Below, piece by piece: positions 30,859 to 37,630 of a stretch of DNA of 48,322 nt. Source of the DNA: an uncultured Pelagibacteraceae bacterium (GTDB lineage: Bacteria; Pseudomonadota; Alphaproteobacteria; Pelagibacterales; Pelagibacteraceae). The notes beneath the pieces are model-generated. The model saw only the letters and a list, made by a program, of their open reading frames with translations, made no database searches and was not told where the DNA came from. Location of the stretch: assembly GCA_902541515.1 (NCBI GenBank), contig CACBRD010000005.1:1-48322 (forward strand). Direction: 5' to 3'. Position numbers and translations under genes: made by a program. Every line of letters starts with the position of its first letter. Within the stretch, counting starts at the first letter, position 1.

Positions 30859-32544
30859 TTAAGAGCTTTTAAGACCTTCGATCAACTTAATATTAATTTT
30901 TTCAATTAATTCTTTTTCAGTATCTTTCATTTTCAATACATTGGTCCAAAAATATCTAGCCTGGATTTTTCTATTGAGCTTCCACAAAATGTCACCGTAA
31001 TGGTCATTCACTATCGGATCATCTGGCATCAATTCTACGGCTCTTTTCAAAAATTTTTCAGCTTTTGGATAATCATCAGTTAAATAATAAGCCCAACCAA
31101 TAGAGTCTATTATATACGGGTCATCACTCTCAAGTTCGTAGGCTGTTTCAAGCATTTTAATCGCTTCATTAATTTTATAATCCCTCTCAAGCCATGAATA
31201 AGCAAGGTAATTTAGTATATAAGCATCGTCAGGTGTAATTTGAAGTGCATCAATTAAATCTTTATCGGCTTTTTCATAATTTTTAATTCGTTCATATGTA
31301 CCTCCTCTTCGATAAAGAATATCTGACTTGATATCCGAATTATCATCCAAATTTTCAATAATTTTAGAGTAATATCTTATTGCTTCTTCGTAATTTTTTG
31401 CTTTTTTGTAAAAATTAGCGACATCAAATAATATTTTTTCATTTGGATTCTCAATTTTATCAAAATTAAATTTAATAAAGTTAAGAGACTCTTGATTATT
31501 TCTTTGCGCTGAAATTATTTGCGCTTCTTTTTTTAATCTAAACCAATAGTAAAAATCATCATCCTTTTTAAATTTTTTAAGAACCTTTTTTGCCTTTTCA
31601 TAGTCTTTATTAAAATAATGATTTTCTGCAACTAGTGATAAATTAAATACAAATCTAGGATTGAGAAAATTTGACAGATTTAAGTAAAAATTTGACATCT
31701 CATAATTGTCTTGTGCAGAATACAGATTTGATATTAAAAACAAAAATTCAGCAATTAAATCATTATGATTTTTGCATGAAAAAACCTCTTGAAATTTTTG
31801 CAAGTTTCCATTGTCAATCCAACTTTTACCTTGTGATAGTAGCAATGTTGAATTTAAAAATTCTATTTCGTTAGTAATTACTTTTGCTTCATTTAAATTA
31901 TCGTTTTCAACTAAGTAACTTATATAAAAATAAATATACCTAGTAAAATCAGACTCAGGATCATTTATCAATTTTGAGAAATATCTCCCTGTATTAGGAT
32001 CATCTAAATAACACTTTTGAAATGTTTCTGAAATATAAGATAGTCTTCCAAAGTTTTTCTTATCGTCTAAAAATTTTTTTTCTTTAAAGAGGTAAACATA
32101 TTGTTTTAAGCTTTCTAAAATTGCTAAATTAAACCTATCCTGTTCTGTAAAATTATTTGCAATAGAAATGTATTCATAGGCAATATCTAACTCATTTTTT
32201 TTTAAACTATCAATTATTAATAATAAATAAGAGTCGAAAAAATCTATATTTTCATTTTCATAATTTTGTTTAATAATTTGAATCGCTTGCAATACTTTAT
32301 TCTCCAATACCAATGAAGATACATACCTTTTTAAAAATGGATCATGGGCATTAATCAAAATTTTAGATGAATTAAAAAAATTTAAAGCTTCAGAATTTTT
32401 TTTATTACCAAAAGCAACTATACCTGAAAAATATTTTGATAAATTTTTAGAATCAATTTTTTCAAAAGAATTACTTTTCGTAAACAAAGTGTTCTGATAA
32501 AATAATAATATAATAAGTATAAATTTTATATTTTTAAGAAACAT
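30859..32544 (-). CDS. TPR-repeat protein with N-terminal hydrophobic signal/anchor
   Basis: MFLKNIKFILIILLFYQNTLF; C-terminal TPRs (YLTDDYPKAEKFLKRAVELMPDDPIVNDHYGDILW). Confidence 0.85.
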   Translation of the reverse strand: MFLKNIKFILIILLFYQNTLFTKSNSFEKIDSKNLSKYFSGIVAFGNKKNSEALNFFNSSKILINAHDPFLKRYVSSLVLENKVLQAIQIIKQNYENENIDFFDSYLLLIIDSLKKNELDIAYEYISIANNFTEQDRFNLAILESLKQYVYLFKEKKFLDDKKNFGRLSYISETFQKCYLDDPNTGRYFSKLINDPESDFTRYIYFYISYLVENDNLNEAKVITNEIEFLNSTLLLSQGKSWIDNGNLQKFQEVFSCKNHNDLIAEFLFLISNLYSAQDNYEMSNFYLNLSNFLNPRFVFNLSLVAENHYFNKDYEKAKKVLKKFKKDDDFYYWFRLKKEAQIISAQRNNQESLNFIKFNFDKIENPNEKILFDVANFYKKAKNYEEAIRYYSKIIENLDDNSDIKSDILYRRGGTYERIKNYEKADKDLIDALQITPDDAYILNYLAYSWLERDYKINEAIKMLETAYELESDDPYIIDSIGWAYYLTDDYPKAEKFLKRAVELMPDDPIVNDHYGDILWKLNRKIQARYFWTNVLKMKDTEKELIEKINIKLIEGLKSS

Positions 32545-32555
32545 TGCTACATTGT

Positions 32556-33272
32556 ATGATTAAAAAGACTTTAAATCAAAATGCTAAATATGCTCAAGAA
32601 TTCATGAAAACAATTGAAACTGATTTTATTTTTAGCGATAAACCAATCAATAGATTTAAAGTCGACTCAGCTAAAAATAATGAAACTTTAATAAATAAAA
32701 ATAAATTGCTGAATGATCTTAGAACAAAGATCAATTCAATTGAAAATTGTAATTTAAAAAATAATTCTAAGAATTTGGTCCTGGGTGAAGGTAACCCTAA
32801 TGCTGATGTGATGTTAATTGGAGAAACTCCAGGCGAAATAGAGAATGAAACTGGCTTATGCTTTCAAGGAGAAGTGGGCAATCTCTTGAACAAAATGTTA
32901 CTAGCAATCAATTTAAAAAGAGAAAATATTTACACTACCTACTCAATTAATTTCAGACCACCAGAAGACAGAAAACCCACCGGACAGGAGATAAAACGTT
33001 ATGCAATATTTCTAAAAGAACACATTGCGATAATAGATCCAAAAATTTTAATTTTAATGGGCAGCACAGCAATGGAGGCAATTACAGGATTAAGCAAAAT
33101 ATCTAAAGAAAGAGGTAAGTGGAAAGAAATAATTTTAAAGAACAAAACTATTCCTATCATGATTTCTTTCAGCCCCTCCTATCTAATTAGATTTCCAGAA
33201 AATAAAAAATTTTCATGGGAAGATCTAAAAAAGATTAAACAAAAAATTCAAGATTTAAATATTAGGATTTAA
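32556..33272 (+). CDS. Uracil-DNA glycosylase superfamily, family-4-like (divergent)
   Basis: GEGNPNADVMLIGETPGEIENETGLCFQGEVGNLLNKML; NFRPPEDRKP; SPSYLIRFPENKKFSWEDL. Confidence 0.82.
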   Translation: MIKKTLNQNAKYAQEFMKTIETDFIFSDKPINRFKVDSAKNNETLINKNKLLNDLRTKINSIENCNLKNNSKNLVLGEGNPNADVMLIGETPGEIENETGLCFQGEVGNLLNKMLLAINLKRENIYTTYSINFRPPEDRKPTGQEIKRYAIFLKEHIAIIDPKILILMGSTAMEAITGLSKISKERGKWKEIILKNKTIPIMISFSPSYLIRFPENKKFSWEDLKKIKQKIQDLNIRI

Positions 33273-33832
33273 TGAAAACTATTGCTGGAGTTGATGAAGT
33301 TGGCAGAGGTAGCTTAATTGGACCTGTTTATGCAGCAGCTGTAATATTGAACAAGTCCATCAATAAAAAATTATTAAAAGACTCAAAAAGTTTGAGAAAA
33401 AATAAGCGAGAATTTTTAGCTAAATACATTAAGAAAAACTCTATTTGGGCTACAGGTAAAGCTTCTGTCTCAGAAATTGAAAAAATAAATATTCTTCATG
33501 CAAGCCTATTAGCTATGGAAAGAGCGATTAAAAAACTCAAAAAAAAACCAAAACTGATTTTGGTAGATGGAAATAAAACACCAAATTTAAAAAATTATAA
33601 ACTTCAATCAGTCATTAAAGGTGATCAAAAAATACCATCTATTTCTGCAGCATCAATCATAGCAAAAGTTACACGTGATAAAATGATCTCTAAGTTAGGT
33701 AAGAAATTTAAAAGTTATTATTGGAGTAAAAATTATGGATATGGAACAAAACAACATCTTAAAGCTATAAAAAAATTTGGGATTACTTCTCATCATAGAA
33801 AAACTTTTTTACCAATCCGCAAGATAAAATAG
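33272..33832 (+). CDS. rnhB: Ribonuclease HII
   Basis: AGVDEVGRGSLIGPVYAAAVIL, ILVDGNK, SAASIIAKVTRDK; starts in a TAATG overlap with the UDG. Confidence 0.95.
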   Translation: MKTIAGVDEVGRGSLIGPVYAAAVILNKSINKKLLKDSKSLRKNKREFLAKYIKKNSIWATGKASVSEIEKINILHASLLAMERAIKKLKKKPKLILVDGNKTPNLKNYKLQSVIKGDQKIPSISAASIIAKVTRDKMISKLGKKFKSYYWSKNYGYGTKQHLKAIKKFGITSHHRKTFLPIRKIK

Positions 33833-33847: not shown

Positions 33848-33909
33848 ACCAGATGTAGTTGTTGTGAAACACCATCATACAATTGAAGTCCAAATAATTC
33901 AATCCTAGG

Positions 33910-33938
33910 TTGACCCAAGAATCTTTTTGGAGTCTAAT
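33910..33938 (+). promoter_or_regulatory. Candidate ccrM promoter: TTGACC-N17-TCTAAT, with GANTC sites at 33919-33923 and 33930-33934
   Basis: Direct reading of TTGACCCAAGAATCTTTTTGGAGTCTAAT 14 nt upstream of the ccrM ATG. Confidence 0.55.
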
Positions 33939-33951
33939 TTATTTTTATAGA

Positions 33952-35022
33952 ATGAATTTGGACTTTAAAAACAAATTAAAAAATGGAGATAGTTTAAGGG
34001 AACTTAAAAAAATCCCTAGTGAATCTTTTGATTTAATTTTTGCTGACCCTCCTTACAACTTACAATTAAAAAATGAGCTTATAAGACCCGATAGGTCTAG
34101 GGTAAATGCAGTCAATGATAAATGGGATCAATTTGAAAATTTTAAAAAGTATGATGAATTTACCTACTCGTGGTTAACAGAATGTAAAAGAATTTTGAAA
34201 AAAAATGGAGCTATTTGGGTGATTGGCAGTTACCATAACATTTTTAGAGTTGGCACCGCTATTCAAAATTTAGGTTTTTGGATTTTGAATGACGTTATCT
34301 GGAATAAAAAAAATCCTATGCCAAATTTCAGAGGGACACGTTTTACTAATGCACATGAAACGTTGATTTGGGCATCAAAATCAGAAAAATCAAAATACAC
34401 TTTTAATTATCAATCTTTAAAATGTTTAAATGATGATCTTCAAATGAGATCGAACTGGGAGTTGCCGATTTGTAATGGTTCTGAAAGACTTAAAAAAAAT
34501 GGTAAAAAAGTGCATTCTACTCAAAAACCTGAGGCTCTACTTCACAGAATTTTATTAGCAACCTCAAATAAAAATGATTTAGTTTTAGATCCTTTTTTAG
34601 GATCAGGAACAACAGCAACGGTTGCAAAAAAATTGGGTAGAAATTATTACGGAATTGAAAAAGAAAAAACCTATTATAAGGTAGCTGAACAACGAATAAA
34701 AAATACAAAACCTATAGAAGATGATTATTTAGATACTTTGCAAAATGGTAGATCTAAGCCAAGAATACCTTTTGGGTCATTGGTTGAATTAGGAATAATT
34801 AAACCAGGCACTTCTATTTTCGATAATAAAAAGAAAATCAGCGCAAAAATTATGGCTGATGGAAGTATAAAACATGCCAAAAAAGAGGGCTCTATTCACA
34901 AGGTAGCTGCATCAATATTAGGAGCAGAAAGTTGTAATGGCTGGACTTATTGGCATTATAATCTTAATGGGCAAATAGTGCCTATAGATAATTTAAGACA
35001 AAGATTAATTTCAAAAAATTAA
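33952..35022 (+). CDS. ccrM: CcrM-type adenine-N6 DNA methyltransferase (GANTC specificity predicted)
   Basis: [48 protein letters not shown]-terminal CcrM domain. Start placed at [15 protein letters not shown] rather than TTG 33910. Confidence 0.93.
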
Positions 35023-36161: not shown

Positions 36162-37141
36162 AAGTTGCTCTCTAAATACTTAACAACTTTTTTTGTAAAT
36201 GTTGGCAACATAGAATTGCCAATTTTTTTTTGATCAACCCAATAAGAAGAGGATATTTCTCTAACAATTTTTGGATATTGAATTTTGATGTTCATATTCA
36301 TGTTGGACATTTTAAAATTTATTGTTTTATTAAATTTTTTGGGTTTAGATAATTCCTGCATTGGAAATATTCTTAAGTTTTTGAGAAATTTAAATTTTGT
36401 ATTTTTAACCAACAGATATTTTTTATCTTTTTTATAAACATTTAAAATAAAATACTTATCTATATTTTTTTTACTGTTCTTTACAAGTTTGAAATCTTTT
36501 TTACGAAATGATTCACATTTTTTTGAGATTGGACATTTTAAACAGTTAGGATTTGTAGGTTTACAAATCAAAGCCCCTAATTCCATTAAAGCCTGCGCAT
36601 AATCGCTGGACCTTGGGGATGTTCCTAATATTGATTTTTTTTTGTGGAGATTTTCCTTAGTAATTTCTTTTTCTTTTTTTAGAAAAAGATATCTTTTTAA
36701 AACTCTCTCAACATTTCCATCTAGCGGTATGAAAGACTTATTAAATGCAATCGCCAAAATTGCACTAGCAGTATAATTTCCAATTCCTGGTAAAGAAATT
36801 AAATCATCAAAAGTATCTGGTAATTTCCCTTGAAAATTTTTTTTTACAACTTGAGCAGTTTTTCTTAAATTTTTTACTCTAGAATAATATCCAAGACCTT
36901 CCCAGAGTTTATATAATTTTTTGTCACTAGTTTTGGCAAGTGAGCTAAGATTTGGAATGTTTTTAATGAAGCGATTAAAATAAGGAATAACTGTTGCAAC
37001 CTGAGTTTGTTGTAACATAAATTCACTTACTAATGTAAAATATTGCTTTTTAGTGGGTGAAACATTTTTTCGCCATGGTAATGATCTTTTATTTAAATCG
37101 TACCAATTAAGAATTTTTTTTGTTACAAATTGATCTTTCAT
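36158..37141 (-). CDS. mutY: A/G-specific adenine glycosylase
   Basis: ILNWYDLNKRSLPWRKN, EFMLQQTQVATV, LPGIGNYTASAI, Fe-S motif C-x6-C-x2-C-x5-C (CKPTNPNCLKCPISKKC). Confidence 0.95.
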   Translation of the reverse strand: MKDQFVTKKILNWYDLNKRSLPWRKNVSPTKKQYFTLVSEFMLQQTQVATVIPYFNRFIKNIPNLSSLAKTSDKKLYKLWEGLGYYSRVKNLRKTAQVVKKNFQGKLPDTFDDLISLPGIGNYTASAILAIAFNKSFIPLDGNVERVLKRYLFLKKEKEITKENLHKKKSILGTSPRSSDYAQALMELGALICKPTNPNCLKCPISKKCESFRKKDFKLVKNSKKNIDKYFILNVYKKDKKYLLVKNTKFKFLKNLRIFPMQELSKPKKFNKTINFKMSNMNMNIKIQYPKIVREISSSYWVDQKKIGNSMLPTFTKKVVKYLESNL

Positions 37142-37630
37142 ATGCAATATAAAAAATATATTAAGCAGAGAACTGGTAGCATTCAAGGATTAAGGTCTTT
37201 CAATGACACTTTGCCAAAAAATATTAAAAAGTTTATTAATAAAAGAGGTCATATTTATTCCGAAACACTCAATAATTGGAAATTCATTGCTGGTGAAAAA
37301 TTATTTAAAGTTTGTTATCCAAAGTCTTTTAAGAATACTAACAAGTTCAGTGTAAGCACGCTCTTAATAATGGTGCAAAGAGGTCATGAAGTTGAGTTAG
37401 AATATTCAAAAAAAGAAATTATGGATAGAATGAATGCTTTTTTTAAAGATGAAGTTGTAAAACGGATTAAATTTACAAGTTTTAACGATGAAAATAAAAT
37501 AGACAATCAGAAGATAATTCAGAATAAACCTGTGACAAACAATAAATATAAAAATAAACTTAATGATGTTAAAAATGAAAAAATCAAAAATTCTTTAATT
37601 GAATTAACTAAAGTTTTTAAAGAAAAATGA
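37142..37630 (+). CDS. DUF721/DciA-like protein
   Basis: Basic N-terminal region then LNNWKFIAGEKLFKVCYPKSFKNTNKFSVSTLLIMVQRGHEVELEYSKKEIMDRMNAFF, a DUF721-like pattern. Confidence 0.75.
   Translation: MQYKKYIKQRTGSIQGLRSFNDTLPKNIKKFINKRGHIYSETLNNWKFIAGEKLFKVCYPKSFKNTNKFSVSTLLIMVQRGHEVELEYSKKEIMDRMNAFFKDEVVKRIKFTSFNDENKIDNQKIIQNKPVTNNKYKNKLNDVKNEKIKNSLIELTKVFKEK

Follow-up and report, generated by a model that had tools for sequence, protein, structure and literature searches.

An open reading frame of an uncultured Pelagibacteraceae (SAR11) bacterium raises the question of why a uracil-DNA glycosylase (UDG) gene should be maintained after nearly all of the residues that recognize and excise uracil have been exchanged for others. 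The gene lies in a stretch of 48,322 nucleotides that was analysed as a whole and is termed the window here (Table 1). Few cell groups on Earth are as abundant as SAR11, whose set of repair genes is minimal, so that a repair gene conserved in a rebuilt form points to a repair activity, or a partner function, that has gone unnoticed.

The family-4-like nature of the encoded protein, proposed in a preliminary description of the sequence, is borne out by profile and by predicted fold. The protein matches PF03167 (E 1.6e-31) and scores 158 bits against TIGR00758, the model for family-4 UDGs (cutoff 125.3). In a Foldseek search with its AF2 model (pLDDT 83.6, with core blocks mostly above 90), the top PDB matches were Thermus 1ui1 and 1ui0 and Thermotoga 1vk2, all of family 4, with TM values by target of 0.87–0.88 for family-4 structures (0.87 for 1ui1), and family-4 enzymes are the nearest solved structures both by sequence and by predicted fold. 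The ATG at 32556, which is shared with many relatives, is the best choice of start, a TTG at 32544 also being in frame. The closest named relatives (92–96% identity) come from single-cell genomes of uncultured Pelagibacteraceae, and the gene is present in 21 of the 22 near-complete genomes of the genus. No relative was found on viral contigs, and a viral origin was rejected on these grounds.

Four motifs were located where they had previously been placed, NCNLKNN at residue 64, SINFRPPEDRKP at 130, EIKRYAIFL at 145 and SFSPSYLIR at 204. When aligned to Thermus (Tth) UDGa (1ui0), the reference whose numbering is used here for positions 13–162, the protein has only one of the four Fe-S cysteines (C16, as C65), with C13, C84 and C100 replaced by I62, F133 and Y149, and the histidine of motif 2 (H155) is replaced by S206. 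Both losses had been recognized in the preliminary description; two further changes in the pocket, N80 to Y129 and N89 to D138, are absent from it. None of the ligands, nor the catalytic histidine, has merely shifted: apart from C65 and C102 the protein has no cysteine, and apart from H156 no histidine, and C102 pairs with P53 and H156 with Q108. Shifted motifs were rejected on the basis of an alignment of 208 distinct orthologs and of the lack of any other histidine or suitable cysteine. Sequencing error is ruled out, because about 100 distinct orthologs, taken from single-cell genomes and MAGs that are independent of one another, show the same pattern.

Table 1. Coordinates of the UDG-like gene, its diagnostic residues and its neighbours in the window (Thermus UDGa equivalents in parentheses)
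Feature	Position	Strand	Length	Basis or remark
UDG-family-4-like gene, S/N-type (rebuilt pocket)	32556..33272	+	238 aa	PF03167, TIGR00758, AF2 model
Former CxxC: I62 (C13), C65 (C16, kept)	32739..32750	+		Alignment
T91 at motif-1 position G42	32826..32828	+		A/T/S in S/N clade, G in Pelagibacteraceae H-type
Pocket residues kept: E96 (E47), F103 (F54)	32841..32864	+		98% and 99% conserved in S/N clade
Y129 replacing N80	32940..32942	+		Tyr 100/100 S/N-type, Asn 65/65 H-type
F133 replacing Fe-S ligand C84	32952..32954	+		W in other alphaproteobacteria, Y/F in Pelagibacteraceae
D138 replacing N89 (water-positioning Asn)	32967..32969	+		D 95, E 4, N 1 of 100
Y149 replacing Fe-S ligand C100	33000..33002	+		Alignment
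Motif 2: S206 (H155), P207, S208 (A157)	33171..33179	+		Alignment of both types
Divergent TPR-protein gene	30859..32544	-		TPR families; ancestral alphaproteobacterial neighbour of UDG, shared synteny
rnhB (RNase HII)	33272..33832	+		PF01351; start codon overlaps UDG stop; neighbour in both types and sister family
bablM RNA element	33886-33955	+		RF01784, 69.8 bits
CcrM-like N6 adenine methylase with RAMA domain	33910-35022	+		PF01555, PF18755
DciA-like protein	37130-37630	+		PF05258

On comparison of the orthologs, the loss of the cysteines and the loss of the histidine are two separate events of very different age, since a sister subclade within the Pelagibacteraceae has the same cysteine pattern and yet has kept FHPAYLLR. 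A survey covered 165 Pelagibacteraceae sequences, 13 of the sister family f2 and 30 alphaproteobacterial ones (L134–L163). No cysteine occurred at position 13 in any of them, position 84 was W, Y, F or, once, H, and C16 and usually C100 were retained outside the Pelagibacteraceae. A wider alphaproteobacterial sample contained a few copies with a cysteine at position 13 (L246, L255, L257); the full set of four is present in L246 alone, which is a separate copy in genome G250. With C13 and C84 missing from essentially all sampled alphaproteobacterial orthologs, the Fe-S cluster was lost long before SAR11 arose. In a sister genus within the Pelagibacteraceae (G258), the copy L244 has lost all four cysteines (L, F, F, Y), and RLQDNK stands where RPPxNR is expected, with Asn80, Asn89 and the motif-2 histidine retained.

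The great age of the cysteine loss bears on the suggestion of iron sparing made in the preliminary description, considered here as an adaptation to iron-poor ocean water. The habitat of SAR11 is iron-poor and three of the four ligands are indeed absent in Pelagibacteraceae, but the class-wide absence of C13 and C84 extends to large genomes of non-marine type, and the same genome retains two other Fe-S repair enzymes, a family-5 UDGb and a MutY in which the C-x6-C-x2-C-x5-C cluster reported earlier is found at residue 208 of the ORF. Iron sparing is accordingly very improbable; what stands of the earlier interpretation is the loss of the ligands and of the motif-2 histidine, with a change in specificity as a live explanation.

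The second event is seen when the orthologs of the genus are compared, 65 distinct sequences of H-type, with the motifs GEGPG, YITN, PPxNR and FHPAYLLR, and 100 distinct sequences of S/N-type, with GE[A/T/S]PG, Y..Y, PPxDR and F[S/N]PSYLIR (a few have D for E or an altered last G). The two types share about 57% identity and are set apart almost completely at nine of 172 columns (42, 78, 80, 81, 89, 149, 155, 157 and 162). The pocket of Tth UDGa has been defined by seven residues (PMC5387724), of which four, namely 42, 80, 89 and 155, are among these nine (hypergeometric P ~1e-4). Asn80 is replaced by Tyr, and Gly42 by Ala, Thr or Ser, in every S/N-type sequence and in none of H-type; Asn89 has become an acid in 99 of the 100 (Asp in 95, Glu in 4), with Asn in the remaining one; and His155, invariant in H-type, has been exchanged for Ser (53 sequences) or Asn (47), and which of the two is present varies inside the clade. 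Position 157 is Ser in all 100 and Ala in all 65. E41 is 96% conserved and the arginine of PSYLIR is kept.

A tree of both types, built with ten diagnostic columns removed, places the S/N-type sequences in a single clade (SH-aLRT 99) nested among those of H-type. Both types occupy the same locus, in the order divergent TPR gene, UDG, rnhB, CcrM-like N6 methylase with RAMA domain and mutY, and the UDG-rnhB-methylase order is kept in f2. In HTCC1062 the locus is directly ahead of rnhB (SAR11_0108; PMC2704228), and the adjoining locus tag is presumably the UDG gene. The shared locus and the single nested clade together indicate that the pocket was changed in place, and once, and horizontal replacement is not supported. 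Approximate Nei-Gojobori estimates of dN/dS for close pairs have medians of 0.164 in the S/N clade, 0.122 in H-type and 0.101 in f2, and a value near 0.16 shows that the S/N-type gene is maintained by purifying selection. This, with reading frames intact in about 100 relatives, led to rejection of a pseudogene. In two sequences, L194 and L207, the frame is interrupted early, after codon 7, and ATGs are available further on.

Two other features of the neighbourhood were observed. The bablM RNA element between rnhB and the methylase gene, which has been described for Pelagibacter (PMC2704228), overlaps the methylase ORF at its 5' end, where that ORF begins with TTG; the true start of the methylase probably lies further downstream than the element, at an internal ATG. 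The DciA-like gene adjoins mutY and is a conserved neighbour in Pelagibacteraceae.

What the exchanged residues do is known from the Thermus enzyme, in which N80 forms two hydrogen bonds to uracil (N3/O4), H155 stabilizes the leaving group and N89 positions water (PMC5387724). The H155S change in Tth UDGa reduces k2 by more than three orders of magnitude (2.3e-1 to 7.2e-5 per s), and N80A lowers k2/Km about 40-fold (PMC5387724), while in UDGX the substitutions N91A and H178A, at the positions of N80 and H155, abolish activity with the fold kept (PMC10776899). Judged from its residues, the SAR11 protein has probably lost the ability to excise uracil efficiently. As selection keeps the gene even though its uracil residues have been swapped, it probably has a new function, the former one being left to a second enzyme of uracil repair.

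A candidate for that second enzyme is encoded in the same genome (L059; G000 contig C4:41099-41596, minus strand). It has four cysteines and an HPSPRN motif, its best PDB match is Tth UDGb 2d3y (E 3.7e-43), and it is the family-5 enzyme of the pair, the protein of the window fitting family 4 far better by sequence. In both types, most of the near-complete Pelagibacteraceae genomes carry UDGb; it was not found in three of the 12 high-quality S/N genomes examined (G128, G143 and G081, 88–93% complete). Uracil excision in these genomes is probably carried out by this Fe-S-containing UDGb. The f2 genomes searched have a single family-4-like gene and no other UDG. Compensation by gain or loss of other repair enzymes was considered and rejected, since the repertoires are alike in both types and point to no lesion: the HhH-GPD genes number three in either type, with two in a few of the draft genomes, and endonuclease V and Tag were found in neither.

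The reading that we prefer, with a probability of roughly 0.45, is that the rebuilt protein binds DNA and flips a base but is a glycosylase for a base other than uracil, which is left to UDGb. The gene itself is the family-4-like UDG of the alphaproteobacteria, inherited vertically and devoid of Fe-S, and its pocket was rebuilt in the common ancestor of a single Pelagibacteraceae subclade, the base-reading Asn80 giving way to Tyr, the leaving-group-stabilizing His155 to Ser or Asn and the water-positioning Asn89 to an acid, with alterations alongside in the flanks of motifs 1 and 2. Tyr129 and Ser/Asn206 may then read a different base, and Asp138, at the place from which the attacking water is positioned in family 4, may serve as a base that activates water or may stabilize the oxocarbenium ion in place of the histidine. 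We also propose, more tentatively, that the S/N-type proteins form an unrecognized UDG subfamily with a Tyr, acid and Ser/Asn site and a new target base, probably widespread in marine SAR11, a core family-4 gene having been converted in place once UDGb covered uracil. No description of the S/N variant was found in the open-licence literature, and automatic annotation by TIGR00758 will label all of these orthologs as family-4 UDGs.

The main competitor, somewhat less probable but a serious one, is a pseudoenzyme that no longer removes bases and is kept to bind lesions or AP sites, to recruit or protect, or as an ancestral structural partner. Three main catalytic and recognition residues are gone, the tyrosine could simply block the pocket, and the retention of E47 and F54 is weak evidence for base binding since both are partly kept in degenerate copies elsewhere. 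The lowest-scoring alphaproteobacterial orthologs (L245, L247-L254) also have broken motifs in open frames, about 11 of the 25 genera of family f27 have broken-motif copies, and many of these lie at the ancestral locus, adjoining genes for TPR, putative IspE-like, ETF-QO-like or transglycosylase-like proteins. Every genome checked that has a broken copy holds at least one other UDG-superfamily gene, an example being G250 with its Fe-S-complete copy elsewhere, and the single-UDG genomes whose motifs were read (f2, G278, G186, G171, G254, G271, G182) have them intact, a pattern that is uncorrected for phylogeny. This recurrent motif loss poses its own question of why the gene is kept once uracil cutting is gone. 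However, the broken copies are long-branched with scrambled motifs, unlike the short-branched SAR11 clade, which fixed new residues, the acid at 138 among them, and then evolved slowly. This contrast is the chief ground on which a new catalytic function is favoured over decay. A re-specialized glycosylase is preferred, tentatively, to a non-catalytic DNA-binding protein. The orthologs with lost catalytic motifs in open frames comprise L282-L284, L288, L289, L291, L297-L299, L305 and L306 in addition to L245 and L247-L254.

The protein might instead still act on uracil by another catalytic solution, for example one driven by Asp, more slowly than classical family 4 enzymes. The conserved E41, E47, F54 and PSYLIR arginine fit such activity, and MUG, which lacks both the His and the Asn, excises uracil slowly (PMC10776899, PMC5387724). 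On the other hand, most of these genomes already have UDGb, and the Thermus substitutions H155S and N80A are severe, making this reading unlikely.

Compared with known systems, the S/N-type protein shares with family 4 UDGa (1ui0/1ui1; Thermotoga TM0511, 1vk2) the fold, the GE-PG form of motif 1, RPP, PSYLxR, E47 and F54, and differs from it in the cysteines and pocket residues, being probably inefficient as a UDG. Family 2 (MUG/TDG) and family 6 (HDG), the latter acting on hypoxanthine, likewise lack the motif-2 histidine (PMC5387724), and MUG also lacks the motif-3 Asn (K68, PMC10776899), but both families have a different motif 1 and low sequence similarity to the SAR11 protein, to which no kinship was found beyond the superfamily; TDG is also a weaker fold match (TM by target ~0.6). 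UDGX is the next-best fold match at about 25% identity, but it keeps its motif-2 histidine (H178) and has a KRRIH loop and cross-linking histidine that the SAR11 protein lacks, and the score against TIGR03914 (UDGX) of 112.7 bits is below the cutoff of 189.95. BdiUng reportedly has a GQDPA motif and belongs to a different family. Brig1, a UDG-superfamily enzyme with a changed target base (PMC11078745), demonstrates that targets can be switched within the superfamily, although it is a phage-defence gene acting on alpha-glucosyl-hmC whereas the SAR11 gene belongs to the core genes and has a fixed locus. A further comparison is with the H-type and other alphaproteobacterial Fe-S-poor UDGs, which are orthologous, lie at the same locus and have lost the same C13 and C84 but retain the YITN, PPxNR and HPAYLLR that the S/N-type does not, such that H-type and S/N-type orthologs provide a natural before-and-after pair for a change in DNA glycosylase specificity.
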